In this document: positions 16,775 to 64,000 of the stretch, piece after piece
Layout: the number at the start of each line of letters is the position of its first letter
How positions within the stretch are numbered: the first letter of the stretch is position 1
Assembly (NCBI RefSeq): GCF_039555335.1
Contig: NC_092640.1
Coordinates: 31,006,204-31,070,203 of the forward strand
DNA from: Amphiura filiformis
Taxonomy: Eukaryota; Echinodermata; Ophiuroidea; Amphilepidida; Amphiuridae
Reading direction: 5' to 3'
Length of the DNA stretch: 64,000 nucleotides
Translations under genes and position numbers: made by a program
The notes under the pieces: generated by a model
Databases searched by the model: none
What the model was told of the DNA's origin: nothing
The model's input: the letters and a program-made list of their open reading frames with translations, nothing else

Positions 16775-16945
16775 CATCCTATCGGTACATGCACACTGCT
16801 GCAGTGACAAAGCAACATAAAAGTACCGAGGCATATCACAACATAATGTTTAACAACTAAGGCCTACTACATATACTACAAAATGATCAGCTTTTAAATA
16901 TCAAAAAGGGTACAAATTGAAATAATCTGATTTGTATATACAGTT

Positions 16946-18480: not shown

Positions 18481-18557
18481 GAGTTAGGGGGGGCACGCCC
18501 TCTCTAATTTTTTTCATGGGGACGGCAAGTGTTTATAGGTAGGCCTATACCGCACGT

Positions 18558-20599: not shown

Positions 20600-20747
20600 T
20601 GCTTGTTTCATACTACCCTGCCGCTTGCCGCTGAGCGGCGTGGCGCACGCGTATTGCAGACAAATGGACACAATCAAGGCTTGTCATTGGTTGAAACACC
20701 CTGCCGCTTGCCGCAGCGGCAAGCGGCAGGAAAGTATGCTGGAGGCT
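20600..20747. mobile_element. 148-bp MITE with TTA target duplication
   Basis: Present in body 1 and absent from body 2, where the site reads CGCC-TTA-GCC (about 30281-30290). In body 1 the element is flanked by TTA on both sides (20597-20599 and 20748-20750). The ends TGCTTGTTTCATACTACCCTG-like and AGGAAAGTATGCTGGAGGCT are imperfect inverted repeats. The interior has the palindrome TGCCGCTTGCCGC/GCGGCAAGCGGCA. A 3-bp TWA duplication is the signature of PIF/Harbinger elements. Confidence 0.75.
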
Positions 20748-20769
20748 TTAGCCAGTGTCTAAAAGTTGT

Positions 20770-21400: not shown

Positions 21401-21763
21401 TGCCTTGCGATTGTCTGCGCTCTGTGAGCGCAAATCATTATCTCTAGTGTATTTTTTTTAGACATTAAGTTACTGGTAGGGCAGACTAGATGTGTCTTTG
21501 ATGATTTGACATGAATTTCAATGTCAAAATGACAATGAGTTTTAAAAATAATATACTGAGTGATAGTGATACCAAGTTTGTGGAAGTCCACATCCCACTG
21601 ACAAAATGATATTTTAATAAGCGCAGAATTATGAAGAATACAGGGCCCAGGAGCCTATAAATATGGCTAGGCGTAAATAGTAGTACAAGTAATATTTAGT
21701 TAGTAATCTTAGGACAAGGCTAGTGGAATTTGTGGAATAAAGCTTTTTTCAAATAAATAGAGC

Positions 21764-22635: not shown

Positions 22636-25163
22636 CATAACTTTAGGCTAGCTTGACATAAAATATCTATGCAATGAATAATAACTATACTACATGAGTA
22701 CTGGCCTACATTTACGTATCTTCTGCTTTAATCATGTTAATGTTCGCTTGTGCTTCCTTGGTAGGCCTAGTTGCAACCGCTTAGTAAACATAACGGGGGA
22801 GGCCTATATCTAATCTTTTCTGAGAGACTTAAGGTTAAATTACAAAGATAATCATAGGACCCATATATTAATAATCTACTTATCTTCGTTTTTAATAGGC
22901 TAAATGAATTATGAACTTTATTCAGTATTAGAAAGAAAGTGAGGCTATTTTTAATTTTTCATTAAACTTATCACTGCTCTATGTCAAAAATATCATGTTC
23001 TCTGAGTATGCCTACTTTAAACATGTGCAAGCATGAGCCAATTAGTGTTGAACTCTTTTTAGGTAGATTTTTTAGGCAGAAGATTTCACATCCCCAAATA
23101 ATGTCTCTAGTCTAAAGCATGTGTATAAAGGAGCAAAAATAAGTTATAATTTCCTCTTTTTGGTCCCAAGAATGGCCCTAAGAATTGTTCAGCAGAATGA
23201 CCCTAAACAGTCAGGAGTAACAGGTCTACCTTCAGTAGGCCTATGACTATTTTACATTAAGCATATTAATCGTGCTGCAAGTCTATGTCAAATATAATGT
23301 TTTTGTATGTGTATTTTTTAAATCCCTAAGTTGTTATTTTTGTCGTTACAGCTGACGTGTTGTTGTGCCACGTGACAATGGAATCAAAACAAGATTGGCC
23401 ATGCAATAGACAGACTAGTCCATGAAAATGTACAATGTATAAAGCATCAACAAAATTGACTTAACTTAGACAGTTTAGATGCAGCCAAAGATTTCGGATG
23501 AACTAACAACTTGAGAGAGCCATAATTGTAATACAAGAGCATGGTCAAATCAAAGATGGAGTAAACTGGCACGGCATGGCATGGACCAACTCCTCCCGGG
23601 CAACTCCTACACTGAATAAAGTCCATCGTTGAGCAGTTGCTGCCACATACTACTCATCCGTTCAAGATCTAACTTAAGTTGTTAGTCATCATTCATTCCA
23701 TATCGCCCGCAGATGGAATGAACTCACGCCTCACATTCCAGGAACTGTGAAATGGACCAGCTTCAAAAAGTGTTTTGGTCAAAAATGTGATTTTTGGTCA
23801 AAAAATGTGCAAACCCATCAGCTTAATGATAACAGCTGTTCTTGCCTTGATATGTGTCTTGACATAGAAAGAACTAAGCAAGCAAATACAGATTCTGGTC
23901 TAGATGTTCTTAATATTGGTATTGATGACATCATCAATGCGATATAAGCCTACTGATAGGGTTGACGTTTTCGATGCTTATCTCCTTCAGCTAAAACTGA
24001 GCACGACAAGGATCCTTTGAATACGTTGAAGGGTGGATTGCAAACGCAGAACAGCTATTGATCACACTATCTGTATTATTATGATCTGATCATCAGTCTA
24101 AGAAAGCTCTGTGAAGTTCTTCGATGAGAAAAATAGAAGTATTCAGTTGTATAATCTGTTAACAATTTTCAGTTTAGTTATACGTGTAAAAGTCAGGACT
24201 TAGAAACCATAATTATGTTAAAGATATGGTATCAGAAGTTTTAAGTAAATTGTAACGTGAAAAGAAGAAAAACTTGAGATTTTTACTCAAGATTTTTACG
24301 CAAGCCAGGGGAAACCCTATATTAACATTAAGTATAATGGGCACATTGCATCCAGTACATTCTTAAAAGGTTCCAAAAGGGTCAAGTTCTAAAGTGTCCT
24401 CCTAGTATATATATAGGCCTATGGATAACCCTCGCACTTTAACACAAACAGCTTTCTGAAAATTCACGAGTTCTTTTGAGAACCATCACAAATCTAATGT
24501 AGAGCTCTAACACTTTTTAAACAAATACACACGTTTTAAAGGAAGGCTCCGCCTATCACAACATTATTCCCTATTATATGTAAGAAAAATAATTATCATG
24601 CACGAATCACGTGGTTTTATCTAAAACAAACTCATGGCGACCATGTGATTCGTGCTTGATTATTATTTTTCTAACATAAATTTATAAGGCACGATGTTAT
24701 GATTGCCGGAGACTCCTTAAAGTGCTTAGGAATAAAAGAAAATACTGTTTTCCACATTTTCACGAAACGATAGGTATTTTTGGCAACTCCAACTCCTAAA
24801 CATCACAAATCACAAATAAAAAGCTTACGAGATCTAATTTCTAAAAGTTTAAAATGACTTTCAGCACAAAATTCCAAGCAGCCTTGAATTTTCGATGTGT
24901 GACACACATCTTCATGGTAGGAAGTCCTGTGATGTTGTTACTTGTTACATATCTAAACATGTATAGCTAAACGTTAGCAGTGTTGAAGACGGGGTATAAG
25001 TGTTCAGGATGCGTTTAGATACAAATTGTATCAAAGTATGATACATGTAACCATGGTAACGTAACTCTGGTAAGGACGGAGCTGATTTTATTTTGGATTT
25101 GCGATGTGTAGGAGAATATGTTTCAAAATATGAAACCATAACTTACCCTGAATTCAAACTCTA
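22636..25163. other. Unique body-1 sequence, no supported gene
   Basis: Matches about 32280-34898 of body 2. A 66-codon frame (23747-23947) is shared with body 2, but the three residue positions that differ are all replacements, so it does not look selected. One hairpin-like pair (GCACGAATCACGTGGTTTTA / ACCATGTGATTCGTGCTTGA) sits at about 24600-24660. Confidence 0.5.
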
Positions 25164-25510
25164 TTAAGGGATGGAGTATGAACGTTTGGACAGTATTTAT
25201 TGTGGGACTTTTGATTTGTTGCAATTTTGATTTGTTGAAATTCGCAATGTAATACACATTTTATAGCAAATCATTAAAAATTGATATTTTTGATATTTAA
25301 CAGTACTCGAAGTTAACTTCATAAATCTGATGATTTATACTTGAGGTGTATGTAGGTGGGATGAAAAAACCGACGATCAATTGAAAATTTTGACCTTTCG
25401 TATTGAAGATATAGATTTTTTTTCCCAAACACCAAAAAAATTGGTCTTTTTGGGAAAAAATCTATATCTTCAATATGAAAGGTCAAAATGTTCAATGTTT
25501 CAAGTGTTTT
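25164..25510. mobile_element. TTAA foldback MITE, right part missing
   Basis: Starts TTAAGGGATGGAGTATGAACG, continues TATTTATTGTGGGAC and reaches the central inverted repeat (GAAGATATAGATTTTTTTTC / AAAAAATCTATATCTTCAAT). It then jumps to unrelated sequence. The body-2 copy (34899-35462) keeps its right end. Confidence 0.65.
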
Positions 25511-25810: not shown

Positions 25811-25984
25811 ACTCAACTTGCAGGCTCTGCGACGACGTTGAAAAATTGATATGATGATGATATCAAAAATAAATTTCAAAGTTCAAGGTAACTCGACTTA
25901 TTGAGGCTTTTACGATAAACTGATATAAAAAGGTGAGAAATTAGCAAAATCGAATACTAAGAAGATTGCCCAAAGTTGCATGTT

Positions 25985-26505
25985 TACTCAGTGGTGGCCA
26001 TCTTGAAAAAAAATTTGATTTTTGACAAAATGTGTTTTTGGTAAAATGTTATTTTTGGTCATAAAATTTATATTTATATGTGATTTTTGGTCAGGGGTCA
26101 AAAATGTGTTTTATGGTCAAAATGTGATTCATGGTCAAAATGTGATTTTTGGTCCAAAATGTTCTCTTGGTCAAAAATGTGATTTTTAGTCAAAAATGTG
26201 ATTTTGGGTCAAAAATATGATTTTCGGTCAAATATGTGATATTTGGTTAAAAATGTGATTTATGGACAAAAATGTACTCTTGGTCAAAAATGTGATTTTT
26301 GGTCTGAAATGTGATTTTTAGTCAAAAATGTGATTTTTGGTGAAAAATGTGATTTTGGTGAAAAATGCGATTTTCAGTCAAAAATGTGGTTTTTAGTCAA
26401 AAATAGGATTTTCGGTCAAAAATGTGATATTTGTTCAAAAAATGTGATTTTTTGGTCAAAAATGTGATATTTAGTCAAAATGTGATTTTTGGTCAAAAAC
26501 ATGAC
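25985..26505. repeat. 19-20-bp minisatellite TTTTTGGTCAAAAATGTGA
   Basis: More than twenty degenerate copies of TTTTTGGTCAAAAATGTGA. A single two-unit copy of the same string lies inside the body at 23771-23805, a possible seed. The body-2 copy is at 36285-36815. Confidence 0.9.
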
Positions 26506-26790
26506 CGCCGCGCACGGGCCCACCGACTCCACGCCCGCTTGCCTCCCGTGTTGCGGTGCCGACTTCACCGGCCCTCCGACGCATGCTCCACTGCACATGG
26601 CCAACCGACAACACACCCGGTAGACTCCCGCGTATGGATGCCGACTGCACCGTCCCTCTGCACCGACCACTGCGCGCGGCTCACCACGACTCCACACCCG
26701 GTTGCATCCCGCGTATGGGTGCCGCCTGCACCGGCCCTCTGCACCGACAACGACGGCGATACCAGTTACCCAGGGGGCGATACAAGGCCT
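26506..26790. repeat. GC-rich subterminal block with internal repeats
   Basis: Three or four degenerate copies of a ~95-bp unit containing CCCGCGTATGG(A/G)TGCCG and CTGCACC. They are inverted relative to the GC-rich block at 18.3-18.5 kb. Composition differs sharply from the AT-rich minisatellite just before it. Open frames here are repeat by-products. Confidence 0.7.
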
Positions 26791-26879
26791 AGCCTATAAT
26801 CATGAATTCATGATAATATTCTCCCAGACGGACCACAGCGGTGAGGTTCTACACGTGGGTACGTATAAATTTATTACTA

Positions 26880-27126
26880 TATAATAATTATATTTGAATA
26901 AATATCAGGTTAAAATCGGATTGAATTCAGGTTGAAATTCGGTTGAAATTTCGACGTTAATACAACGTGAAATTCAGGTTGAAATTAGGTTGAAATTTCG
27001 ACGTTGAATCAACGTTGAAATCGGGTTGAAATCAGGTTAGAGTCGATTTGCAAATACAACGTGATTTCAACGTCGAAACGTCAACCTGATTTCAACGTGA
27101 TTTCAACGTCGGGTGTGCCCACTGGG
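26880..27126. repeat. Right subterminal repeats and TIR of body 1
   Basis: Repeated TTGAAATCAGGTTGAAAT and TTTCGACGTTGAATCAACG strings end in GTCGGG and TGTGCCCACTGGG (27114-27126). They are followed directly by TATGCTATACGGC and the start of body 2. Confidence 0.85.
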
Positions 27127-27782
27127 TATGCTATACGGCCCCGTCGCCGCTCAATTGGCGGGCTGATGTTGATATGGGAATTCCTACAACATGGTGAAGT
27201 TGGTGCAAGAGACGTTCACAAACACTTGTTGGGGGGGGGGGCTGATGCAAAAGGGTGGGGAGGGGCTTTAGTTTTGACCCTCCTAGGGGTAGAGGAGGGG
27301 CCTTGAAAAAATGACCAAAAATTTTCCCAGGAAAATTGAGTTTATATGATTTTCTATGGGATTGACCCATAATTTTCATGTCAAAGGGGGAGGCTGAATT
27401 TTTAGAGATCTGAAAGGGGCGGAAAACTTTCGCGATGATTTTTTTTTGCATCAGCCCCTAACAAGTGTTTGTGAGCGGTCCCTAATATGCCTATTCGCAT
27501 ATCTTCAAACTATTTTACTAACCCGATCATATCGCCCCGGGGAATTGCCCGGGTATCGCCACGGTGGCATAGCCGGTGTAGTAGCTACAAGGTCGGCATA
27601 TCGAGGTCGGCACCCATACGCGGGAGGCAACCGGGTGTGGGAGTGGGTGGGCCGGCCGCATCATAGGCCTATGTTGTCGATCATAGTCGGAGAAAGCAGG
27701 GGAGTGTTAGGGGGGACGCCCTCTCTAATTTTTTTTTTTCATGGGGACGGCAAGTGTTTATAGGTAGGCCTATACCGCACGT

Positions 27783-28570
27783 TTGCAAGATATTGTGGGT
27801 GGGTATGTACACGCGTGCACAATTGTGTTAACAAGCGTTCGCAAATGTTTGCGAGTACGCACTCATGTTTACAAGTGTTCATGGGTACGCTTGCGTACAT
27901 TGCCGGTACGCACGCACGTTCGCAAGTGTTTGCGAATACGCATGCACGTGCGCAATTGTTTATGGGTACGCATGCACATGTTCAAGTCTTTATAGGTACG
28001 CACATGCGTTTGCAAGTTATTTCGGGTACGCACGCGCGTTCGCAAGTGTTTGCAAGTATACACATAATGCATACACAAGTGTTTGCAAGTACAAACGCAC
28101 GTTCTCAAGTGTTTGGGAGTATACGCATGCACGTTCGCAAGTGTTTGCGTGAATACACTCGTTCTCAAGTGTTTATGCGTACGCATGCACGTTCGCAAGT
28201 GTTTGCAAGTACGCAAGCGTATGCGCAAGTGTTTACGGGTACGCACACGCATGCGCAGGTGTTGATGGGTACGCACTTGTGTTCGAAAGTTATTGCGGGT
28301 ACGCACGCGCGTACGTTACGCAATCGAGTTTGCAAGTGTTTTCGAGTACGCATGCCCGTTCGCAAGTGTTTATGGGTACGCGAAAGTTATTACGGGTACG
28401 CATGCGAGTTCGCAAGTGTTTGCAAGTGCACACTCGCGTTCACAAGTGTTTATAGGTAGGCCTACGCACGCACATTTGCAAATTATTGAAGGTATACGTA
28501 CGCGCGTGCACAAGTGTTTGTGAGTACGCACACAAGTGTTTATGGGTAGGCCTACGCACACGCGAGTGCA
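27783..28570. repeat. 36-bp GC-rich minisatellite, body-2 copy
   Basis: Same unit and flanks as 18558-19390, with about two fewer units and different indels. Open in several frames on both strands. Confidence 0.9.
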
Positions 28571-29651
28571 AAACTGATGCCACTGCCACGAGCGGGACGG
28601 CGCATCAATCAATGACATAATGCCTTGAATGTGTCCGTTTGTTTGAACTTGATGTAGGACTAGGATCTGGATTTGGATCTGGATAGGCAAGCAGTGAATT
28701 CTGCATCACGCTAGAGTTGTAGGCTAGTCGGCCTAGGCCTATGAAACATGTTGAAAAATAATTTCAAATTTTTGGATATTCGTTAGTTCTGGTCGCATTT
28801 TTACCTATAAACATGTTTCTAATCCTAGATCACCATGTTTGGACATTCAAAAGTTTAAAAAATTTTGGATTAAAATTGTAGTAGTATCGCTTTCGCCCAA
28901 CACTTTTCCAGAACGGATATTGCGATATTGCCCAATGTACATCAGTAAGCAAAAGGAGTTGTACGCGTACGTGTGACGAACATAAACTTGAGGCCTAAAT
29001 TTGCAAATAAAACAGGTTAGTAAACATTTAAATTTTCTTTAAAGGTCTACTTGACTTTTGGACACATTGCTGGATTTATATTTCAACTTGGTTTTCCATT
29101 TTGTATTATCAGGATATGTTAAAATAGTTAAGCTTACTGAGCAGTTAAATTACATGCCTGCTGCACATGCCATGCATGCTGTACAATCATGAATGCACCA
29201 TTCGAGACACGAAACAGTGCCTTGAAGTTGACATGCTTAATGACTTGTACTTGTACAAGACCCAGTCATGCCAGTTTGGAATATTTGCTGGGGGCAATCA
29301 GGCCCGTAGTCTGGATTGATTGGGGGGATATTGATTTTGAAAAAGTGGACTTTTTTTTTTCAAAATTTGGAACTTTTTGGACTGGGCGGATTTGGACATT
29401 TTTGGACGGACCAAGATTACAGAAGGCATAAAAAACCTCTATTTTTCGCTCGCTGCGCTCGCAAATGGGACTTTTTGGGTTAAAAAAAGGGGAACTTTTT
29501 GGGCCTTTGGCATGGGGGGGTGCTGGCTACGGGCCTGGGGAAATGCAAATGTTTATTGTATAATTAAGAAACTAGGCCCCTAGAGCCTAGCGATTGTACT
29601 GTTTTTGGTCAGTTCTTCTTTCTTTCTTTCTTTCTTCTGTCAAACCTATAA
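28571..29651. other. Unique body-2 sequence, no gene
   Basis: Counterpart of 19391-20440. Ends in a (TTTC)n microsatellite at about 29617-29635. No supported coding region. Confidence 0.5.
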
Positions 29652-30128
29652 AGCTGAATTTATACTCGATCGCCGAGCGATGCGATTAATCGCTTTTGAA
29701 AAAGCGATTTGCAATCGCCGAATTTTGCGATGCATCGCCCGTCGCTTTTGCATTTATACTTATCACGGCGATAGCGATTGCAGACGACAATTAAAATATT
29801 CTAAATGCCACAAAATACATTTTTAAAACATCAGTTGCTGTCAATAATTATTACTTTGAATTAATTTATCACCAAAAGTTAAAAATCGAGAAAGGTAAAT
29901 TAATTAGCAAAATAATAGATCCAGTTGGTGGTATATGATTGGTTGACGCATTCACGTGTCAAGCGATATCGCTGGGAAGTTGAGATTTCTTCAACTTGCA
30001 AAAGCGACGTCGTTTTTGCCTCAGCGATTTGAATCGATTGATCGGCTTGACGCTCTGGAAATGTAAGTAAACATTGAGCATGCGTGAAAATCGCTTTTCT
30101 GCAAAAGCGATTGAGTATAAATTCAGCT
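29652..30128. mobile_element. 477-bp MITE with TAA duplication (copy 1)
   Basis: Ends AGCTGAATTTATACTCGATC and GATTGAGTATAAATTCAGCT form inverted repeats. It is flanked by TAA at 29649-29651 and 30129-30131. Body 1 has the empty site CCTA-TAA-CGAG at about 20430. The interior repeats the tetramer GCGA/TCGC in palindromes. No open transposase. Consistent with a PIF/Harbinger-type MITE. Confidence 0.85.
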
Positions 30129-30299
30129 TAACGAGTCATCGTAGCCATATGCTCTAGGCCAGTGTCCAACTCGGTGGGTCAAAGGTCATATGTCATTTAT
30201 GGCCAAAATGTGATTTTCACTAAAAATGCTTCATCTTCCACAAATTACATAATACAATGACGTCACTTGCATACCTGCATCGCCTTAGCCAATGTCTAA

Positions 30300-30754
30300 A
30301 GCTGAATTTATACTCATTTCACGCATGCTCAATGTTTACTTACATTTCCAGAGCGTCAAGCCGATCAATCGATTCAAATCGCGGAGGCAAAAACGACGTC
30401 GCTTTTGCAAGTTGAAGAAATCTCAACTTCCCAGCGATATCGCTTGACACGTGAATGCGTCAACCAATCATATACAACCAACTGGATCTATTATTTTGCT
30501 AATTAATTTACCTTTCTCGATTTTTAACTTCTGATGATGAATTAATTCAAAGCAATAATTATTGACAGCAACTGATGTTTTAAAAATGTATTTTGTGGCA
30601 TTTAGAATATTTTAATTGTCGTCTGCAATCGCTATCGCCGTGATAAGTATAAATGCAAAAGCGACGGGCGATGCATCGCAAAATTCGGCGATTGCAAATC
30701 GCTTTTTCAAAAGCGATTAATCGCATCGCTCGGCGATCGAGTATAAATTCAGCT
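30300..30754. mobile_element. 455-bp MITE, inverted second copy
   Basis: Same family as 29652-30128 but in opposite orientation 170 bp away. The empty site in body 1 is GTC-TAA-AAGTTG (about 20759-20770). Together the pair forms a large inverted repeat that could fold as a hairpin. A frame of 69 codons appears once in each copy and is a by-product. Confidence 0.8.
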
Positions 30755-30769
30755 AAAAAGTTGTACAAA

Positions 30770-31385
30770 GAATTGGGGTCAAAGGTCATTAAGAGGGGGA
30801 TCTCACAATTGCATTATCTCGACATCCGTAATGGGTATGGGGCTCAAACTCGGTGACAACAAATCTCATGACCAGGGCCGGGGACATTTTACAGGGGTCA
30901 GGTCAAAGGTCAAATTTTAGAAATGCATTTTCTGTAAGGGGTACGGCCTACGGGACTCAAACTCTGTGACAACAAACTGACCAAGGGAATATATTGAACA
31001 CTTTGCAGGGGTCAGGTCAAAGGTTATCTTGGGTCAAATCTTATAATTTCTTCTTCTGGACTCAAACTCAGTGACAGCAAATCTCATGACCAGGGAAACA
31101 TTTTGCAGGAGTCAGTGAGTTCAAAGGTCATGCAGGGGTCAAATTTTAGAAATGAATTTTTTGGACATCTGTAAGGGGTACGAGGCTCAAACTCGGTGAC
31201 AACAAAATTAATGACCAGGGGGGGATATGTTGAAACACTTTGCAGGGGTCAGGTCAAAGGTTAACTGGGGTCAAATCTTATACCGTAATTTCATTTTCTG
31301 TAATGGATATGGGGGCTCAATTTCGGTGACAACAAACTTCGTGGCCCGGGAAACATTAAGGTCAAAGGTCAGGTCAAATGGTCAT
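30770..31385. repeat. AGGTCAAAGGTCA-type array, body-2 copy
   Basis: Counterpart of 20770-21400 with the same unit order. AGGTCAAAGGTCA-like strings sit near 30776, 30899, 31016, 31124, 31249 and 31361. Confidence 0.75.
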
Positions 31386-31749
31386 TAAAGAGTTACATGC
31401 CTTGCGATTGTCTGCGCTCTGTAAGCGCAAATCATTATCTCTAGTGTATTTTTTTTTAGACATTAAGTTACTGGTAGGGCAGACTAGATGTGTCTTTGAT
31501 GATTTGACATGAATTTCAATGTCAAAATGACAATTATTTTTAAAAATAATAAACTGAGTGATAGTGATACCAAGTTCGTGGAAGTCCACATCCCACTGAC
31601 AAAATGATATTTTAATAAGCGCAGAATTATGAAGCATACATGGCCCAGGCCTATAAATATGGCTAGGCGTAAATAGTAGTACCAGTAATATTCAGTTAGA
31701 CTAGGCTAGTGGAATTTGTGGAATAAAGTTCTTTTCAAATAGATAGAGC

Positions 31750-32290
31750 TTAAGAGCTCGGATAGCAACGTTTTCACGTATTTTGTGTGGGACCTGAGAG
31801 CAAATCAGACATATCTAATTGCATTTTGATTTGAATACGAGGAATGTCCTTCTAGTACGGTATCAAATAATTTTTTGAAATTCGAGATTAAAAATTGATA
31901 TTTTGAAACAGTCCTCGAAGTAAATTCTATAAATCTAATGATATACTTAAAGTGTATGTAGCTGGGACGAGCGGCCGTCAATCATATGAACATTTTGACC
32001 TTTCCTATTGAATTAAGATATAGATTGTTCCCCAACAAAATTTAGGTCTTTTGGGGAAAAATCTATATATGAACAGATGAAAGGTCAAATTTGTCAATTG
32101 ATAGTTGGCTTTTCATCCCAGCTACATACACTTCAAGTAGATATCATTCGATTTATTAAGTTTACTTTGAGAACTGTTAAATGTCAAAATTGCCATTTTA
32201 ATAATTTGCCCCAAAATTTTTATTGCATCGCGAATTTCAAAAAATTTAAATTATTAAATATATCAGAAGGACATCCCTATTCAAAATTAA
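31750..32290. mobile_element. TTAA foldback MITE, right end missing (body 2)
   Basis: Counterpart of 21764-22635, starting TTAAGAGCTCGGATAGCAAC. The right terminus and the nested 290-bp MITE are absent and the sequence resumes at ATCATGTTAATGTTCG. Confidence 0.65.
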
Positions 32291-34898
32291 TCATGTTAAT
32301 GTTCGTTTGTGCTTCCTTGGTAGGCCTAGTTGCAACCGTTTAGTAAACATAACGGGTAGGCCTATATCTAATCTTTTCTGAGAGACTTAAGGTTAAATTA
32401 CAAATATACATCATATGACCCTAATATTAATAATCTACTTATCTTCGTTTTTAATAGGCTAAATGAATTATGAACTTTATTCAGTATTTGTATTCACGAG
32501 ATTTAGACCCTTAAAGCTATAGGCCTATACCTTCCAAGTTATTAAAGGTCGTAAAGATCTTCCTCAAATAGATTCAACATTAAGGTGCAATCTGCAGTTC
32601 TCTAGAAAGAAAGTGAGGCTATTTTTAATTTTTCATTAAACTTATCACTGCTCTATGTCAAAAATATCATGTTCTCTGAGTATGCCTACTTTAAACATGT
32701 GCAAGCATGAGCCAATTAGTGTTGAACACTCTTTAGGCAGATTTTTTTAGGCAGAAGATTTCACATCCCCAAAATCAATAATTTCTCTAGTCTAAAGCAT
32801 GTGTCTAAAGGAGCAAAGATAAGTTATACTTTCCCTCTTTTTGGTCCCAAGAATGGCCCTAAGAATTGTTCAGCAGAATTACCCTAAACAGTCAGGAGTA
32901 ACAGGTCTACCTTCAGTAGGCCTAGTATGCCTATTTTACATTAAGCATATTAATCGTACTGTAAGTCTATGTCAAATATAATGTTTTTGTATGTGTAAAT
33001 TATGGAAATAATTGTATTTTAAATCCTGAAATTGTTATTTTTGTCGTTACAGCTGACCTGTTGTTGTGCCACGTGACAATGGAATCAAAACAAGATTGGC
33101 CATGCAATAGACAGACTATAATCCATGACAATGTACAATGTATAAAGCATCAAGAAAATTGACTTAACTTAGAAAGTTTAGATGCAGCCAAAGATTTCGG
33201 ATGAACTGACAACTTGAGAGAGCCATAATTTTAATACATAAGAGCACGGTCAAATCAAAGATGGAGTAAACTGGCACGGCATGGCATGGACCAACTCCTA
33301 CACTGAATAAAGTCCATTGTTGAGCAGTTGCTGCCACATACTACTCATCCGTTCAAGATCTAACTTAAGTTGTTAGTCATCATTCATTCCATATAGCCCG
33401 CAGATGGAATGAACTCACGCCTCACATTCCAGGAACTGTGAAATGGACCAGCTTCAAAAAGTGTTTTGGTCAAAAATGTGATTTTTGGTCAAAAAATGTG
33501 CTAACCCATCAGCTTAATGATAACAGCTGTTATTGCCTTGATATGTGTCTTGACATAGAAAGAACTAAGCAAGCAAATACAGATTCTGGTCTAGATTGTC
33601 TTAATATTGGTATTGATGACATCATCAATGCGATATAAGCCTACTGATAGGGTTGACGTTTTCGATGCTTATCTCCTTCAGCTTAAACTGAGCACGACAA
33701 GGATCCTTTGAATACGTTGAAGGGTGGATTGCAAACGCAGAACACTTCCAAAGCTATTGATCACACTATCTGTATATGATCTGATCATCAGTCTAAGAAA
33801 GTTCTGTGAAGTTCTTCGATGAGAAAAATAGAAGTATTCAGTTGTATAATCTGTCAACAATTTCAAGTTTAGTTATACGTGTAAAAGTCAGGACTTAGAA
33901 ACCATAATTATGTTAAAGATATCTTACGTGGTATCAGAAGTTTTAAGTAAGTTGTAACGTGAAAAGAAGAAAAACTTGAGATTTTTACTCAAGATTTTTA
34001 CGCAAGCCAGGGGAAACCCTATATTAACATTAAGTATAATGGGCACATTGCATCCAGTACATTCTTAAAAGGTTCCAAAACGGTCAAGTTCTAAAGTGTC
34101 CTCCTAGTACATATATAGGCCTATGGATAACCCTCGCACTTTAACACAAACAGCTTTCTGAAAATTCACGAGTTCTTTTGAGAACCATAACTAAATCTAA
34201 TGTATTTAGGCTCTAAATGTCCAGCTCTAACACTTCTTTTTAAACAAATACACACGTTTTAAAGGAAGGCTCCGCCTATCACAACATTATGCCCTATTAT
34301 ATGTAAGAAAAATAATTATCAAGCACGAATCACGTGGTTTTATCTAAAACAAACTCATGGCGACCATGTGATTCGTGCTTGATGTTTATTTTTCTAACAT
34401 AAATTTATAAGGCATGATGTTATGATTGCCGGAGACGAAGTGCTTAGGAATAAAAGAAAATATTGTTTTCCACATTTTCACGAAACGATAGGTATTTTTG
34501 GCAACTCCAACTCCTAAACATCACAAATCACAAATAAAAAGCTTACATATCTAATTTCAAAAAGTTTAAAATGACTTTCAGCCCAAAATTCCAAGCAACC
34601 TTGAATTTTCGATGTGTGACACACATCTTCATGGTAGGATGTCCTATGATGTTGTTACTTGTTACATACATGTATCTAAACATGCATGTCACTTAGCCAA
34701 ACGTTAACAGTGTTGAAGACGGGATATAAGTGTTCAGGATGCGTTTAGATACAAATTGTATCAAAGTATGATACTTGTAACCATGGTAACGTAACTTGAA
34801 AATCAAAAGGACGGAGCTGATTTTATTTTGGATTTGCGATGTGTAGGAGAATATGTTTCAAAATATGAAACCATAACTTACCCTGAATTCAAACTCTA
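32291..34898. other. Unique body-2 sequence, no supported gene
   Basis: Counterpart of about 22735-25163 with small indels and a ~115-bp segment not in body 1. The 66-codon frame 33438-33638 mirrors 23747-23947. Confidence 0.5.
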
Positions 34899-35462
34899 TT
34901 AAGGGATGGAGTATGCACGTTTGGACAGTATTTATTGTGGGACATTAGAGCACATCAGACATATCGAATTGCATTCTGAATACGAAGAATGTCCTTCTGA
35001 TATTAAAAATTTTTGATTTTTTTTAAATTCGCAATGTAATACACATTTGAGCAAATCATTAAAAACTGATATTTTTAATATTTAACAGTACTCGAAGTAA
35101 ACTTCATAAATCTGATGATTTTTTCCCCAAAACACCAAAAAAATTAGGTCTTTTGGGGAAAAAATCTATATCTTCAATATGAAAGGTCAAATTTTTCAAT
35201 TGATCGTCGGCTTTTCCTCCCAGCTACATACACTTTAAGAATATATCATTAGATTTATAAAATTTACTTCGAGGACTGTTATATATCAAAATGTGAAAAA
35301 TATCAAATTTTAATAATTTGTCATAAAATTTGTATTATATCGTGAATTTAAAAAATGAAAATTATTTGATATCAGAAAGACATTCTCCGTATTCAGAATG
35401 CAATTCAGATATGTCTGATGTGCTCTCATGTCCCATAAAAATATTCATTCCAGATCCCTTAA
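34899..35462. mobile_element. TTAA foldback MITE (body 2)
   Basis: Bounded by TTAA (34899-34902 and 35459-35462). The left end is TTAAGGGATGGAGTATGCACG-like and the right end TTCATTCCAGATCCCTTAA. Part of the left arm around the centre is deleted. Confidence 0.75.
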
Positions 35463-35645: not shown

Positions 35646-36284
35646 AGACACACAAAACTATTTAAGTGTTTTTGGTGTTTTCCAGCTAAGGCGGCAGCCA
35701 CTATGAACGTGGCTATACCATCTTGAAAAAAATAATGGATTACCTTGTTCTGCAGCTAGAGCACTATAATATTCCTGGTTGATTTTATACCAATAATAGG
35801 TGAAAGAAGTGTCCTGTATGTACATGTGTTTGTTGTTGTTTTCAACTAAGGCAGTTGCCATTTATTACTATTACTTGCATTATAAAGGTACAAAAATGCT
35901 TTGTCAACTCTATAATAACATGTTAATATATCGTGCATCTATTTTTCAAAAGTGTTTTTAGAACGTTATTAAAACGTTTTTATACCCTTTATATAAACCA
36001 ACAATAAAACGTTATCTGTAAAATGTTTTGTGTTTGCTGGGCAACTCAACTTGCAGGTTCTACGACGACGTTGAAAAATTTATATGATGATGATATCAAA
36101 AATAAATTTCAAAGTTCAAGGTAACTCGACTTATGGCCTAAAACGCGACGCTTACTTTGCACGTAAAATCTTTGGAAAGCTATTTAGGATTTGAAGGTTA
36201 AAAATCATCAAATTGAGGCTTTTACGATAAAAAGGTGAGAAATTAGCAAAATCGAATACTAAGAAGATTGCCCAAGTTGATTTT

Positions 36285-37090
36285 TGACAAAATGTGTTTT
36301 TTGGTAAAATGTTATTTTGGTCATAAATGTGATTTTTGGTCAAAAATATGTTTTTTTTCAAAACGTGATTTTTGGTCAGGGGTCAAAATGTGATTTATAA
36401 TAAAAAAATGTGATTCATGGTCAAAATGTGATTTTTGGTTTAAAATGTACTCTTGGTCAAAAATGTGATTTTTGGTCTAAAATGTGATATTTGGTCAAAA
36501 ATTTAATTTTGGTCAAAATAGGATTTTCCGTCAAAAATGTGTTATTTGTTCAAAATGTGATTTTTTGGTCAAAAATGTGATATTTGTTCAAAAATGTGAT
36601 TTTCAGTCAAAAATGTGATTTTTGGTCAAAAAATAGGATTTTCGGTCAAAAATGTGATATTTGTTCAAAATGTGATTTTTGGTCAAAATGCAATTTTGGT
36701 AAAATTGTGATTTTTGGTCAAAATGTGATTTTTGGTCAAAATGTGATTTTTGGTCAAAAATGTGTTTTTTGGTCCAAAATGTGTTTTTTGGTCAAAAATG
36801 TGATTTTTGGTCAAAAACATGACCGCCGCGCACGGGCCCGGGCGCACCCGATTGCCTCCCGCGTTGCGGTGCCGACTGCACCGGCCCTCCGACTCCGACG
36901 CATGCTCCACTGCACGAGGCCAACCGACACCACACCCGGTAGACTCTCGCGTATGGATGCCGACTGCACCGTCCCTCTGCACCGACCACTGCGCGCGGCT
37001 CACCACGACTCCACACCCGGTTGCATCCCGCGTATGGGTGCCGACTGCACCGGCCCTCTGCACCGACAACGACGGCGATACCAGTTACCC
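36285..37090. repeat. 19-bp minisatellite and GC-rich block, body 2
   Basis: The TTTTTGGTCAAAAATGTGA array (36285-36815) runs into the GC-rich CCCGCGTATGG repeats (36816-37090), as in body 1. The 177-codon frame across it is a repeat by-product. Confidence 0.85.
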
Positions 37091-37199
37091 AGGGGCGATA
37101 CCAATCCTAGCCTATAATCATGAATTCATGATAATATTCTCCCAGACGGACCACAGCGGTGAGGTTCTACAAGTGGGTACGTATAAATTTATTACTATA

Positions 37200-37434
37200 T
37201 AATAATTATATTTAAATAAATATCAGGTTAAAATCGGATTAAATTCAGGTTGAAATTTCGGCGTTTAATACAACATGAAATTCAGGTTGAAATTAGGTTG
37301 AAATTTCGACGTTGAATCAACGTTGAAATCGGGTTGAAATCAGGTTAGAGTCGATTTGCAAATACAACGTGATTTCAACGTCGAAACGTCAACCTGATTT
37401 CAACGTGATTTCAACGTCGGGTGTGCCCACTGGG
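37200..37434. repeat. Right subterminal repeats and outer TIR
   Basis: TTGAAATTAGGTTGAAAT and CGACGTTGAATCAACGTTG repeats ending TGTGCCCACTGGG at 37422-37434, then TTATATTGG of the right flank. Confidence 0.85.
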
Positions 37435-37950
37435 TTATATTGGTTTGTGATGTGGTACGTCACAAGGAGGTACTTCTGTGCAGGGGTCAGTTTTGAGTTT
37501 TTTACATATCGTACAGATAATTTCCACACTGCTTTTTGTTGTTGTTAGAATTGGATATTCCAAATTAAGCTAAGTTATGGAATTCCAAAGTTGGAGTGTC
37601 TTATATACCGGTATATTAAAAGTCAACATTTAGATATCGTCCTTATGTTAAATTAAATGTTTTGTGGGAAAGTGATCAAAGTTTACATCCAAAAGTGTAA
37701 AACAAAATGCAGGTTGCAGCAGATTAATTTCAGTCCCAACCTTAAGACAACATTAAACATTATCAGCATCATAAATTTGCAAAAAACTCAAAATTATATA
37801 AAAATCATCCATGGCTGGGTATTTAGCTGTTTCTCCACTCCCGTTCGTGCCCAGAAGTGCCTTTTTGACAAACCCTGTCACATGTACATATGCTATGTTT
37901 ACAAACCATGCAACAACAAAACAACAGGTTGGCTTAAGAACCACTAGACC
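37435..37950. other. No gene recognised
   Basis: Flank of the giant element. Short frames at 37657-37947 have no motif. Confidence 0.45.
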
Positions 37951-45958: not shown

Positions 45959-47930
45959 TATTACCTGTTTACCTGTTTACCTGTCGTCTCAGGCACTCTT
46001 TTGGAAGGCTATAAAGCCTTATAACGCCCATCCAATTTCATCATTACTTGACTACAATAGAGAGAAAATTAATGTGTACTGCAAGTAATTTGTTCCAGGG
46101 TGGTGCTACCCTGTAATCATACTTGTCTATATGGTTCTCTAAGAAGGTGTCAATGCCGCTTTTAAAGCAGTTGGTAGACTTGGCATGCACTACGGTTGCT
46201 GGCAATCGATTCCAAGCATTTACGACCCTTAGGGTGAAACAATTTCTTCTAAGCGTGTCCTTGCTTCTTACTTTATTGATCTTTAAATTATGTCCCTCAG
46301 CCCTACCGTCCTCCTCTCCATATCGAATAGATTATGGGGTTGGATGTCTGTCAGACCACTCATAATGCGATATACTTGGATGAGGTCTCCTCTGAGTCTT
46401 CTGAATGCTAATGAAGGGAGTTTTAGCCTTTTTAGACGTGCTTCGTATGGCTGATCTCTGATCTCGGGAATCAACTTAGTTGCTCTGCGCTGAACCTTCT
46501 CCAGTTTATCAATATCGCCTTTCAGAAATGGACTCCATACACAATTTGCATATATTCCAGATGTGGTCTAATCATGGTCTTGTATAGGGTTTTGAACATT
46601 GGAATATCCATATACTCAAAGGTTCTCCTCATCACTCCCACAATACGATTTGCTTTATTTGTGACTGCTCCTACATGCTTTCTGAAGGTAAGCGAACTGT
46701 CAAACAGGACTCCCAGATCCTTTTCTTCCTCCAGCTTCCCCAGTGGTCTTCTATGATCCCCATCTTTCATGGAATAACTATGGACTTCTCTGTCCTTGCC
46801 ATAATGCATCACTCCACACTTCCCTACGTTGAAATATATTTGCCATCTATTCGACCAATCTCCCAGCTTGTCCAAATCCTCCTGCAGCTTGGCACAATCA
46901 TCATCACTGTGAACTTGGGTAAAGACCTTAGTGTCATCCGCAAACATTCTTACTAAGCTTGAAATTTCATTAGGGAGATCATTGATGAAAATGATGAACA
47001 AGATCGGTCCCAGTACACTGCCTTGGGGGATACCACTTTTCACCTCTGCCCACGAAGATTTGACTCCATTTACAGAGACACGTTGCTTTCTTCCAAGCAG
47101 GAAGCTTCCTATCCAAGTTTGCCATCTATACCATGGGCCTCAACTTTCCTCAGTAAGCGTTGGTGTGGGACCGAATCGAAGGCCTTTCTGAAATCCAGGT
47201 AGACCACATCAATGCCATCACCCTCTTCAAGCATCCTGGTCCAGATATCCATGATTTCTATTAGCTGTGTAACGCAAGATCTTCCTTGCCTAAATCCATG
47301 CTGTTCATTGCAAATTATATCATTTTCTTTCATGAAATCCATCAGTTGGTCTCTGATAATTGACTCAAGCATCTTGCATACAACTGATGTCAAACTGACA
47401 GGTCGATAGTTACCAGCATCAGAAGGGCTTCCTTTTTTGTATATAGCTGTTACCTCTGCTATCTTCCATCTATCTGGGACGACACCTTCCTCCATAGATT
47501 TATTGAAAATAACAGCCAGGGGCTCTAAAATTTCCTCACATGCTTCTCTCAAGACCCTTGGATGCAGGCCATCAGGGCCTGGTGACTTTGACGGTTTTAA
47601 CTTCAGTATCTCCTTCCTGACATCTTCACACTTTATGTTGATATTCTCTAACTTTACATCTTGGTACATCTTATCTGGTTTAGGAATGTGCCTTGTGTCC
47701 TCTTCTGTAAAAACACTAGCAAAGAAGGAGTTGAGTACTTCTGCTTTATCACCATCAGCTTGTGCATAAGATCCATCCTCTTTTTTTAGATCCTTAATTC
47801 CAGCTTTCACCTTAGTTTTAGATCTTACATACTTCCAGAACGCCTTGGGATAGCCAAAAATAGGAAATGTTTCCTTTTGTTTCCGGTTGTTTTGGAAACT
47901 CTTTTTTAAAATTGCTTATATCTTTGGAAT
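45959..47930 (-). mobile_element. 5'-truncated CR1-like LINE with one frameshift in RT
   Basis: The minus strand encodes, in order: GYPKAFWKYVRSKTKVK (linker, ~47850); LKPSKSPGPDGLHPRVL; NYRPVSLTSVVCKMLE; EQHGFRQGRSCVTQL; VVYLDFRKAFDSVPH (RT motif A); GIPQGSVLGPILFIIFINDL; MFADDTKVF (catalytic FADD); then a C-terminal region with RPHLEY and LKRLKLPSLAFRRLRGDLI, stopping at 46044. One single-base shift near 47120 separates 47810-47109 from the downstream frame (which resumes about WIGSFLLGRKQRVS); the thumb region also changes frame near 46500. The endonuclease and ORF1 are missing. The 3' end is three copies of the 8-mer ACAGGTAA (plus-strand 45959-45984). CR1-clade elements are known for ending in short microsatellites instead of poly(A). 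Confidence 0.9.
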
Positions 47931-55526: not shown

Positions 55527-55679
55527 AGGTACCTTTGTTCATGTTAATTTTGTAAAATAAAGCAGGCTTGCAGTAGACATATACAATAATATTGTTTACA
55601 TTGTCACGTAAATGTGCTAGATACCTATATGGGCAATAATGTCTACTTTGCCAATATTATATTTTGCTCAGGTTAATTT

Positions 55680-57005
55680 TGTAAAATGAAGCAGGCTTGC
55701 GGTGGACAATTGTCTACCTTGTCACAAATATGCTAAGTGGCATATAAATACATGTATACATATCAGGCAGGCTTGCGGTGGACAATTGTCTACCTTGTCA
55801 AGATCACATTTTACTCTGGTTAATTTTGTAAAATGAAACAGGCTTGAGGTGGACAATTGTCTACCTTGGCAAGATTACATTTTACTTGGGTTAATTTTGT
55901 AAAATGAAGCAGGCTTGAGGTGGACATTGTCTACCTTGGCAAAAAGTGCTCAGTAGGCCTATAAAATCATGTATACATATCAGGCAGGCTTGCGGTGGAC
56001 AATTGTCTACCATGTCAATATTACATTTTACTCAGGTTATTGTAAAATGAAGCAGGCTTGAGGTGGACAATTGTCTACCTTGTCACAAATGTGCTCAGTG
56101 GCCTATAAATACATGTATACATATCAGGCAGGCTTGCAGTGGACAATTGTCTTCCTTGTCACAAATATGCTCAGTGGCCTATAAATACATGTATACATAT
56201 CAGGCAGGCTTGCGGTGGACAATTGTCTACCTTGTCACAAATATGCTCAGTGGCCTATAAATACATGTATACATATCAGGCTTGCGGTGGACAATTGTCT
56301 ACCTTGTCAAGATTACATTTTACTCAGGTTATTGTAAAATGAAGCAGGCTTGAGGTGGACAATTGTCTACCTTGTCACAAATGTGTTCAGTGGCCTATAA
56401 ATACATGTATACATATCAGGCAGGCTTGCGGTGGACAATTGTCTACCTTGTCACAAATATGCTCAGTGGCCTATAAATACATGTATACATATCAGGCTTG
56501 CGGTGGACAATTGTCTACCTTGTCAAGATTACATTTTACTCATGTTATTGTAAAATGAAGCAGGCTTGAGGTGGACAATTGTCTACCTTGTCACAAATGT
56601 GCTCAGTGGCCTATAAATACATGTATACATATCAGGCAGGCTTGAGGTGGACAATTGTCTACCTTGTCAAGATTACATTTTGCTTAGGTTAATTTAGTAA
56701 AATGAAGCAGGCCTGAGGTGGACAATTGTCTACCTTGTCACAAATATGCTAAGTGGCATATAAATACATGTACATATCGGGTAGGCTTGCGGTGGACAAT
56801 TGTCTACCTTGTCACAAATGTGCTCAGTGGCCTATAAATATATGTATACATATTGGGTAGGCTTGAGGTGGACAATTGTCTACCTTGTCAATAATGTGCT
56901 CGGTGGCCTATAAATACATGTATACATATTGGGCAGGCAGGCTTGAGGTGGACAATTGTCTACCTTGGCACAAATTGCAATTAAATCATGTCATAGTATT
57001 GAGCA
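55680..57005. repeat. Satellite B: 70-77-bp tandem array, ~18 units
   Basis: Unit: GCAGGCTTGCGGTGGACAAT, then TGTCTACCTTGTCACAAAT, then GCTCAGTGGCCTATAAATAC, then ATGTATACATATCAG. GGTGGACAATTGTCTACC occurs in nearly every unit in the same orientation. A shorter variant replaces the CTATAAATACATG part with AAGATTACATTTTACTCAGG. Frames of 65-67 codons starting MDNCLPCHK are repeat translations. Confidence 0.9.
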
Positions 57006-58319
57006 GGTTTCTGATGGACAATAAGTCTACCTTTGTCACATGTTAAAATGAGTTAACATTGCAGTTTTGTGTCTCCCTTGTCACAAACTTGATGCCCCAC
57101 CAACATAAACAAAGCTTCATTTTAATTAAGAAACTCATAGGAATAGCAGACTTTCATAGACGATTCCTTTTCAAATATAACCATAGATTTTGGGCATCTT
57201 TAAAGTAAACTGAAAGGGAAACTTCTATAGCAAATTGTGCAAAAGTGTTAAAACACCCATGCCATGTTTTAGGTATATATCATGAATTCTAAATTGTATT
57301 ATTGATTATCTTTTTTTAACAAGATTGTTGGAAATTGCTTGTTAACCAAAGTTTAAATTTCATAAATATTTTGGCTTCCTGTAGGGTGTTTTTATAGAGA
57401 AAAAATTTCACACATCAAATAAAGTGCATATATATATATTTTTATAATTCATAGGTATTTGTTAAGATGGATGTTTTAAATGCACCAATTATTTTGATAC
57501 AAATGTTTATGTCTGCATATTGGTAGAAGTAGAAAGATGTTTGAGCAAAATGTTGATTTTAAAAATAGTTAAGGTTTTTTCCCAAACATATCAATGTTTC
57601 TGAATTAATAATAATTAAAGCTGTTTTAGGGTTGGATATTATCTTTCAATCATTCATTTGTGTTGCCCCGCCAAATGTTGTGATTGATCATGCTCAACAT
57701 TTTGAGAATAAAACCCTGGAATGTATATATTGTTTCATCATAGTCAAAATGTATTAGTACAAAAGATAAATTTGTGTTAACATTGACAGAATTCTTGTTA
57801 TGACTAAATAAAAGTAAGTTTTTGGTAAATGCCCTTAAAAAGATGCACACAATTTCTCTATAAAACATACTTCAATAACAGGTTTCATAAAAACTGCAAG
57901 CCAGTATGTAAATTATAAAATTATCAGTGGTGCTTGCCCTACTTTGTGTATTTTACTAGTAAAGGGTAATTTTGGTAAATGTGCGTTTTAAGGTTTTATT
58001 GTAAATATGTTGGGAATTGTATATAGCCAGTTGTTTTAAATTGTATTGTAAAAAATATTGACCACAGAAAGTGATTGAATAAAAAATAATAATTTTATTA
58101 TGTAAATATATATGTTCCTGTTTTAGTCATTTCCTTGATTTTCACTGAAAAACCATGAGTAATGCTAATAAATTTGTAATTATCAGTAAAAAGTCTGATG
58201 TGTCCTGTGAAGATGTTGATATTCATATTTTTACCAAGTAAAATGTAAAAAGATACTGTACAAAAAGACTGATGAAAAGAAAAAATGCCAATCTGAAAGA
58301 TTTTAAAATAACATTTTAG
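57006..58319. other. AT-rich stretch, no gene recognised
   Basis: Includes a (TA)n patch at about 57430. May be intron upstream of the exon at 58320. Nothing else supported. Confidence 0.4.
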
Positions 58320-61715: not shown

Positions 61716-62003
61716 GATTTCGTAGATTTAACTGCTGCCTATGACACCGTATGGCACAGGGGCTAACTGCAAAGCTACTTCGTATGATACCGGACAGACG
61801 TATGGTTCATTATATTCTGAACCTGATCTCAAACCGGAGCTTCGTCCTGAAGACCAGTGACGGATAGCAAAGCAGACTTCGTCGTCTTAACAAGGGATCT
61901 GTACTGGCTCCTTTGCTATTCAACATCTACATCCATGACCTGCCTGAGACAACATGAAAGAAGTACGGCTACGCAGATGACATAGCCATCCTGGCAACGT
62001 TCT
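61716..62003 (+). pseudogene. LINE reverse transcriptase, 5' piece, decayed
   Basis: Encodes, over shifting frames, FVDLTAAYDTVWHRG (RT motif A), LLRMIPDRRMVHYILNLIS, the remnant of the GVPQGSVLAPLLFNIY box (here KGSVLAPLLFNIYIHDL) and YADDIAILATF (catalytic YADD). Several stops and at least one frameshift. The sequence breaks off directly after the YADD block, where the ~1.1-kb insertion begins. Its 3' piece resumes at 63098. Confidence 0.85.
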
Positions 62004-62120
62004 AAAAAGTTCTAAAAAGTAAGTTTACTTTTATATAGATTTGTGAAAGGGACAGATTTTACCCTTCAAATGTGATAAGTTTATCGCACGAGATATTACG
62101 GAAAGTATTCTCCGTAAAAT

Positions 62121-62161
62121 GAACTGCTCTTTTCAGAGCCACCAAAAGTTCAAAAAGAAAG
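62121..62161 (+). promoter_or_regulatory. Histone-type 3' stem-loop with purine-rich element (copy 1)
   Basis: GAACTGCTCTTTTCAGAGCC followed by ACCA. The stem GCTCT/AGAGC has a TTTC loop and the outermost pair is T-C instead of G-C. CAAAAAGAAAG follows 11 bases later, in the place and form of the histone downstream element bound by U7 snRNA. Replication-dependent histone messages end just after the ACCA. No histone coding sequence is nearby. Confidence 0.7.
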
Positions 62162-62243
62162 TCGGGTGACCAGCGAGTCTTCCGAGAAGTAGAAATTATT
62201 TATATAATTTTTACTTTATGCATAGGTCAGATATAGACCTTAA

Positions 62244-62326
62244 CAGTGCTACTGATGAGATCCCTTGAGGATCGAAACAGGCTTGTCTAGCTAACTGTAT
62301 GCTTTTATTCAAGCCGGTCGGCATGG
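62244..62326 (+). ncRNA. Hammerhead ribozyme candidate, type I layout
   Basis: Core CTGATGA (62252-62258), perfect 5-bp stem II GATCC/GGATC with a CTTGA loop (62259-62273), GAAA (62274-62277). Stem III pairs ACAGGCTTG (62277-62285) with CAAGCCGGT (62310-62318), one A-G mismatch, 24-base loop. GTC (62317-62319) is a canonical cleavage triplet, with the cut after C62319. Stem I is the weak part: T50, C49, G48, T47 and G46 can pair with G320, G321, C322, A323 and T324 only if A62251 is bulged. All conserved core residues are present. Activity is inferred, not shown. Confidence 0.75.
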
Positions 62327-62493
62327 ATATTTTATTTATAAGTACTAGTTATTACTTTTAATAAGAATAATTTATATAGTGTTTTTAAGTTTAAAAACAT
62401 GCAGACCTATACATATTTTAAAGTGATGATGTGTTTACACACTAAGTATAGGTTTCTCTATTTTGGTAAGGACGTTTTAAATTTATGATATTC

Positions 62494-62745
62494 AAAGTTC
62501 TGGAGAGGACTCACAGTCACCATCCTCAAGATTGAAACCTAGTCTGGTTTCATCATTCGGTATCAGGTCCTAGTCTGGACTTGATATCAAACAAGCTTGA
62601 TGTTTATTTCAAAGTTAGAGTCCAGGAAAGGACTCGCAGTCGCCACCCTCAAGATTGAAACCTAGTCAGGTTTCATCATTCGGTATCAGGTCCTAGTCTG
62701 GACTTGATATCAAACTCGAGTCCAAGAAAGGACTCACAGTCTTAA
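62494..62745. repeat. ~120-bp tandem repeat, two full units and a partial
   Basis: Units share GGACTC(A/G)CAGTC, CCTCAAGATTGAAACCTAGT, GGTTTCATCATTCGGTATCA and GGTCCTAGTCTGGACTTGAT. A third partial unit begins at about 62718. GAAACCTAGT--GGTTTC and GTCCTAGTCTGGAC are small hairpins. Confidence 0.85.
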
Positions 62746-62830
62746 CCATAAATAAGGTGGAAATAGATTTTTTAACCATAATACTAAAGTTTCTATAACA
62801 GAGACAGAAAAGGTTTTCGAACCGCAGAAT

Positions 62831-62872
62831 GAACGGCTCTTTTCAGAGCCACCAAACTTTACAAAAAGACAG
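62831..62872 (+). promoter_or_regulatory. Histone-type 3' stem-loop, canonical (copy 2)
   Basis: GGCTCTTTTCAGAGCCACCA (62835-62854) is an exact match to the classic sea-urchin-type histone mRNA 3' stem-loop: six-base-pair stem GGCTCT/AGAGCC, TTTC loop, ACCA tail, preceded by GAAC. ACAAAAAGACAG follows as a possible downstream element. The upstream ~20 bases also resemble those before copy 1. Confidence 0.8.
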
Positions 62873-63097
62873 ATATGATTGGTATAATCTTTTGCTTTGA
62901 TATTCACAGTTTTGAATATTATTAACCAAATAGCATGACTTTGGTCATTTGGTTTCACTACATAGGCTATTAGTATATAATTAAGAATTTCTCAGCGGAA
63001 GAATTCCTAATTAAATAGAGCAAGGTTTAAGTTTTATAACAAGGTTATTACTGGAAGCAGGTACCGTCTGTACCCCTCACTTTTTATAATTAAGGAA

Positions 63098-64000
63098 ATG
63101 GCAAAACATCGAGAAGGTCCTCAGCAATGACATGGATACCCTATCAACATATCTGAAGAACTGGCGCCTAAAGCTCGGTGAAGGGAAAACAGTTTCAGCG
63201 GCTTTCCACCTGAACAACAAGGAAGCTAAGCGGGAACTAAACATCATGGTAAATAAGAGTCAACTTTGCTTTCCAAGCTACCCCTACCTACCTTGGAGTG
63301 AAACTTGACAGAGCGCTTACCTACCGACAACACCTGGCAGGCCTCCGCGACAAAGTCACAGCACGGGGAGCTTTCATTCGACGCCTCGCAGGAACAGGTT
63401 GGGGAGCCAGCGTTTCCACTCTACGCACTGCAACCCTGGCTTTGGTTTACGCATCTGCCGAATACTGCGCACCTGTATGGAGTATGAGTGCCCATGCACA
63501 CCCAGTGGACACGAGCTTGTACAACTCTCTCCGCACCATAAGTGGTTGCCTTCGCCCAACCCCAGCAGAACAGCTGTCAGTACTAGCAGGTATTCCACCG
63601 GCTGATCTGAGGAGGAAGTCGCAGACCATGGCCCTGACTCGGCGTGCTTTGAACCCAGACCATCTTCTCCATGAAGTGGTCAACAGAGACGTTTAGCAAC
63701 CTCGTCTGAAGTCGCGGCACCAATTTACAATGGAGGCACATGCTTTGATCCATCAGGCACAGACCAAAAATACATCGGCTCACTGGACAGGCAATGAATG
63801 GCAGCAGAGATGGCAGTTGTCATCTTTGCCTCTAAATAGCTATATCCCAGATACTTCGAAATCCAGCCCTGGCTCGGATTTGGCACGCCATGCACGGGTG
63901 AAACTCAACCGCCTGCGAACAGAAGTAGGTCGCTTCAGGGCCAGTATGCATAGATGGGGCCTCACCCAAAGCCCACTTCGTGAGTGCGGAAATGAAGAGC
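63098..64000 (+). pseudogene. LINE reverse transcriptase, 3' piece, runs off the window
   Basis: Continues the LINE begun at 61716: WQNIEKVLSNDMDTLSTYLK, NWRLKLGEGKTVSAAFHLNN, a small frame change near 63260-63295, then an open frame 63298-63696 with KLDRALTYRQHLAGLR, LVYASAEYCAPVWS and SGCLRPTPAEQLSVLAGIPP. A TAG at 63694-63696 ends this frame, but the same frame resumes after it through ARHARVKLNRLRTEVGRF to the window edge. The order is that of the thumb and C-terminal region of Jockey/CR1-group LINEs. The element is not intact. Confidence 0.9.

Follow-up and report, generated by a model that had tools for sequence, protein, structure and literature searches.

The window analysed here (the whole stretch of 64,000 nucleotides) contains, on its plus strand, a short motif with the letters of a hammerhead ribozyme, placed in an insertion that interrupts a LINE reverse transcriptase. 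This raises the question of whether the motif is a hammerhead, which of two pairings that can be drawn on it would be used, and from what kind of element it came. The features on which our answer is based are collected in Table 1.

Table 1. Positions of the ribozyme candidate, its alternative pairings and the features of its carrier
Feature	Position	Strand	Basis or remark
Insertion of about 1.09 kb in LINE reverse transcriptase frame	62002-63089, ends +/- a few bases	+	LINE protein joined across
First histone 3' stem-loop and purine-rich downstream stretch	62120-62165	+	RF00032, 26.5 bits, below gathering score of 34
AGGTC/GACCT hairpin immediately preceding stem I	62224-62240	+	probability 0.75-1.00 in five folded transcripts; aligned to RAGATH-1 5' hairpin
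Type I hammerhead candidate, preferred register A	62243-62298	+	descriptor match, drawn helices
Core CTGATGA, stem II, GAAA	62252-62277	+	common to registers A and B
GTC cleavage triplet, register A	62285-62287	+	predicted cut 62287/62288
GTC of register B (original prediction)	62317-62319	+	cut would fall 62319/62320
Hairpin-rich 97-nt repeat, two copies (93% identical) and partial third	62496-62752	+	between ribozyme and second stem-loop
Second histone 3' stem-loop and downstream stretch, canonical stem	62830-62876	+	RF00032, 38.5 bits, above gathering score of 34

A complete hammerhead core

The core is intact. A complete CTGATGA box (62252-62258) is followed by a perfect stem II of 5 bp (GATCC/GGATC, 62259-62263/62269-62273), which starts with a G-C pair and carries the loop CTTGA, and by GAAA at 62274-62277, so that the three core elements named in the original prediction are all present. 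CUGAUGA, GAAA and a UH cleavage site, as expected of the hammerhead class, were found within 62252-62287.

The chance of such an arrangement was estimated with a descriptor, composed after the site had been seen, that combines CTGATGA, a stem II with a minimum of 4 bp, GAAA, a UH site, and stems I and III that both start from the core, the former with four or more Watson-Crick pairs. Across both strands of the window it matches one place, the register A site. Random sequence with the dinucleotide steps of the window yielded two matches in 1.814 Gb, or 0.00014 per window, the hairpin richness of the insertion not being copied in that sequence. With stem I relaxed to three pairs, the same 1.814 Gb gave eight matches (0.00056 per window). 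The stem I rule shuts out register B, the pairing of the original prediction. No second hammerhead core was found in the 64-kb window with up to one mismatch allowed.

The covariance-model search proposed along with the original prediction gave a divided answer. No Rfam hammerhead family reached its gathering score in the 64-kb window; with thresholds relaxed and the best model per clan listed, however, RAGATH-1 (RF03152) was the best hammerhead model, matching 62224-62292 with 31.5 bits against a gathering score of 56.3 (E 0.0056 for the 1.3-kb stretch, 0.27 for the whole window). The HH9 model matched 62248-62291 with 17.3 bits against a threshold of 52, and both models align the core to the upstream GTC, that is, to register A.

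The likeness to RAGATH-1 lies in the core and in a hairpin with GTC/GAC pairing that ends 11 nt before TACTGATGAG. Four scans of viral contigs and one of genome contigs with patterns from the ribozyme region, among them a strict pattern of hairpin and core in both collections, gave no match; a looser version of this pattern matched five viral contigs (L001-L005). Among these, L004 (100,726 bases) holds two RAGATH-1 matches in tandem at 2366-2537, one of 57.4 bits, above the threshold of 56.3, and one of 45.0 bits, below it. By eye, L001 looks similar, though it was unreported at threshold, and the GAAA part is missing in L002, L003 and L005. In both L001 and L004 the hairpin loop reads CCAGG, complementary to a CCTGG after the core; this was noticed by eye and is our own reading, with no published rule behind it. 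The window differs in this respect, its hairpin loop (AGATATA) and loop II showing, again by eye, no such complementarity. Membership of RAGATH-1 was rejected on account of this difference and of the score. The match is taken as support for the core and for register A, not for membership of the family.

Two pairings on one core

In register A, stem I is formed directly on the core by GCTA (62248-62251) and TAGC (62288-62291), and is extended beyond a two-base TA bulge by 5 bp (ACAGT/ACTGT); stem III has 3 bp (ACA/TGT) closed by a GGCT tetraloop. Register B, the pairing originally proposed, has a stem III with eight of its nine positions paired (62277-62285 against 62310-62318) and five stem I pairs that include two G-U wobbles; A62251 stays unpaired where stem I meets the core. 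A pair that closes the stem directly at the core is a usual requirement of hammerheads.

Neither energy nor chance separates the two registers. When the downstream sequence was permuted 20,000 times with the core given, register A recurred in 72 shuffles (4 with its stem I extension) and the stem III of register B in 66 (3 with its stem I), the cut-offs for both having been chosen after the sequence was seen. Drawn as helices alone, register B is the more stable (-16.5 vs -11.5 kcal/mol for A); the two come out nearly equal when the core is kept open and everything else may fold (A -20.5, B -19.8). Register A is probably to be preferred, a choice guided by how known hammerheads are built rather than by energy or chance. 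The nine-position stem III with one mismatch and a GTC exists as originally described, as does the unpaired A in a weak stem I, here corrected to five pairs with two G-U. It is probably not the main pairing, however, and the cleavage placed before 62320 is probably not at the main site, the GTC of register A having been missed.

Our folding of five transcripts bears on both registers. In the two transcripts that stop at 62302, the stem I pairs of register A had probabilities of 0.56-0.83, which dropped to 0.16-0.20, 0.06-0.07 and 0.01-0.02 in the three extending beyond this position; the stem III of register A had a probability of 0.00 in all five free folds, though it can be drawn with standard pairs. 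The stem III of register B is contained in three transcripts, where it reached 0.42, 0.65-0.77 and 0.77-0.89. Because the downstream strand competes and the short stem III is absent from the free folds, any cleavage may, on these models, be slow or limited to nascent RNA. The unconstrained minimum of 62240-62332 (-24.0 kcal/mol) has the stem I of register A and part of the core closed, and 62220-62302 is of unremarkable stability (z -1.0; 298 of 2000 shuffles equally stable).

A hairpin-rich insertion in a broken LINE

The carrier of the ribozyme lies between ...ADDIAILAT and RKWQNIEKVL... of the LINE reverse transcriptase. Joined across the insertion, the LINE protein gave 2213 protein matches (best E 2.9e-102), one named relative being from a fish. 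The bounds of the insertion were set at about 62002 and about 63089 because the joined protein, compared with ten relatives, aligns with a one-residue gap at the junction. Stops and frame changes also disrupt the reverse transcriptase gene itself. That a hammerhead motif lies in an insertion of a LINE is well supported. Support was also obtained for the view that the carrier lacks a reverse transcriptase of its own: the 11 frames scanned, out of the 22 frames of at least 30 aa listed for 61990-63100, gave no Pfam domain, reverse transcriptase or histone included.

No other copy of the insertion was found within the 64-kb window, and no clear target-site duplication at its ends. The longest word common to the boundary stretches is TGGCAA (61992 and 63099), which, taken as a duplication, would imply an empty site that breaks the LINE reading frame; worked out by hand, LATLRKW restores the frame best, at a TTAA-like site whose left side reads TTCT. 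With regard to DNA-transposon ends, a 14-nt imperfect inverted match near the insertion ends (12 of 14) was equalled in 32 of 500 shuffles.

The insertion contains 13 simple hairpins, compared with a mean of 4.2 and a highest count of 11 in 60 shuffles; equal stretches elsewhere in the window hold a mean of 5.7 and at most 17. The 97-nt repeat, itself rich in hairpins, contains no hammerhead core. Of 16 segments of 120 nt in the insertion, 10 were the more stable on the plus strand, relative to shuffles, and 6 on the minus strand, with mean z of -2.4 (plus) and -1.8 (minus) vs -0.5 and -0.3 in 200 control segments, the lowest 5% of which fell below about -2.5 on either strand. The strongest plus-strand values came from 62100-62279 (-4.4, -4.3) and 62520-62759 (-5.1, -3.5, -6.5), and in the segment of the ribozyme itself (62220-62339) the minus strand is the more stable (z -1.6 plus, -1.8 minus). 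Wobble pairs in the 13 hairpins gave no bias that would be a sign of selection at the RNA level (7 G-T vs 6 A-C). As modelled, folding suggests that the insertion is a structured sequence, and does not settle which strand is transcribed.

Other parts of the window are repetitive as well. A direct duplication links 17943-25336 with 27138-35121 in three large blocks of 88-91% identity, and a further block is duplicated at 25900-27127 and 36212-37435 (85% identity). A 499-bp unit is present in two copies, 97% identical, at 16943-17941, and its hairpins give sub-threshold Rfam matches to several families of miRNA precursors. Two tandem arrays (55630-57040 and 12908-13673) differ in unit length and have the motif GTGGACAATTGTCTACC in common. 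A fragment of an XK-related protein gene lies at 11359-11808 (Pfam PF09815, E 4.1e-08) and, on the minus strand at 46044-47915, there are long open stretches that look, by motif recognition, like a second, different LINE reverse transcriptase. The XK-related fragment and the LINEs point to an animal host.

Histone-type stem-loops beside the ribozyme candidate

Two histone 3' stem-loops, unmentioned in the original prediction and each followed by a purine-rich stretch, lie on the same strand, one on either side of the ribozyme. The first has a mismatched basal stem pair, and the second an E of 9.6e-08 for the window. The two copies share 51 nt at 86% identity. To their right the sequences align no better than shuffles (55 of 500; 259-409 of 500 over six settings), and the 110 nt to their left behave in the same way (366 of 500; 57-204 of 500 over six settings), the nearest 42 nt on that side being borderline (24-203 of 500 shuffles over six settings). 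A tandem or dimeric retrozyme is not supported, because the window holds no second core and the right flanks of the stem-loops align no better than shuffled sequence.

The arrangement invites the idea of a non-autonomous element RNA with a 5' end generated by the hammerhead (62288) and a 3' end made via the histone stem-loop pathway just after 62850, an idea that we consider very doubtful. If true, it would imply an RNA of about 570 nt between the hammerhead and the second stem-loop, structured, without a tail and tied to S phase. In titles and abstract openings of openly licensed papers, we found neither a mobile RNA bounded in this way nor a hammerhead and a histone stem-loop in one element, which is weak evidence of absence; the word histone is absent from the main text of three hammerhead and retrozyme papers (PMC7229834, PMC7761336, PMC6155905).

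Origin of the motif and alternative explanations

The explanation that we favour, and judge to be reasonably probable, is a type I hammerhead of standard animal layout, with the cut site of register A, that came from a non-autonomous mobile element. Self-cleavage of a plus-strand transcript would then fall between 62287 and 62288, with a 2',3'-cyclic phosphate at the end of the upstream product and a 5'-hydroxyl on the downstream one. The hammerhead would most likely have arrived as the processing signal of the element, retrozyme-like or Penelope-related, where it would have processed read-through RNA, and the remains of the element would now lie within the dead LINE. We infer all three of these properties, namely the cutting, the mobility of the carrier and the role of the ribozyme in processing its RNA. 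The complete core, the G-C start of stem II, the GTC triplet, the low chance expectation, the likeness of the drawn stem III and helix I extension to published animal motifs, the stem I probability in transcripts that stop at 62302 and the sub-threshold RAGATH-1 and HH9 matches are in favour of a type I hammerhead; the failure of every hammerhead family to reach its gathering score, the whole-window E of the best, the zero probability of the register A stem III, the fall of its stem I in longer transcripts, the lower energy of register B as helices alone, the ordinary stability of 62220-62302, the single core and single copy in the window and the five contig scans with no match count against it.

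Some of these latter points would also be consistent with a decayed hammerhead, descended from a working ribozyme and no longer able to cut, in which the competing downstream pairing wins. The window has one copy and one core, the surrounding LINE is broken, and the competing fold dominates the longer transcripts. Such decay is nevertheless unlikely in our view, as no letter of the core has been lost and three stems can still be drawn, which would be unexpected after long neutral decay. It appears quite unlikely that register B is the working pairing, with its bulged A and downstream cut, or that A and B compete as a switch. The probability of its stem III in the three transcripts that contain it, its stability as helices alone, its near equality with A when the core is held open and its rarity in shuffles once its stem I is included all argue for this possibility, and are set against an A62251 that stands unpaired between stem I and C3 and a stem I with two G-U among its five pairs. 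Finally, one short hairpin of a hairpin-rich insertion may have happened to carry the core letters. The excess of simple hairpins over shuffles and the lack of a hammerhead model at threshold would fit such a chance resemblance, but the expected number of descriptor matches per window, even if obtained with a post hoc descriptor and random sequence lacking this hairpin richness, makes it improbable.

Relation to known hammerhead elements

For animal type I motifs, a two-pair stem III capped by a tetraloop has been described (PMC7229834), and for those of newts and salamanders a helix I extended beyond an internal loop (PMC6155905). The favoured type I hammerhead shares the internally looped extension of helix I with the newt and salamander motifs (PMC6155905), and the type I order, a low G+C content (36% in the window) and, as far as it can be drawn, the short tetraloop stem III with the non-LTR retrozymes of coral, mussel and axolotl (PMC7229834). 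The retrozymes, however, are described there as short tandem repeats of 150-450 bp with one hammerhead each, whereas the window has one hammerhead in a 1.09-kb insertion for which no repetition was found. In retrozymes, the hammerhead has been proposed to process read-through RNA (PMC7761336).

Penelope-like elements and Terminons, which PMC7761336 presents as autonomous retrotransposons with minimal type I hammerheads lacking stem III or loop contacts, also combine a type I hammerhead with mobile DNA. The window differs from them in that a stem III can be drawn and in that none of the 11 frames scanned gave a reverse transcriptase belonging to the insertion itself, the one at this locus being that of the interrupted LINE. 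The insertion may be a non-autonomous derivative of a Penelope-like element.

Type I hammerheads are already known from animal mobile DNA, where they are abundant, and one more by itself changes little; the unusual part of this locus is its neighbourhood of histone signals. It resembles histone 3' ends (RF00032) in its two stem-loop copies next to the ribozyme, of which the second passes the threshold, and differs in that the 11 insertion frames scanned contain no histone domain. If the pairing of hammerhead and histone signal recurs in other copies, it would point to a mobile RNA that combines a ribozyme-made 5' end with a replication-linked 3' end.
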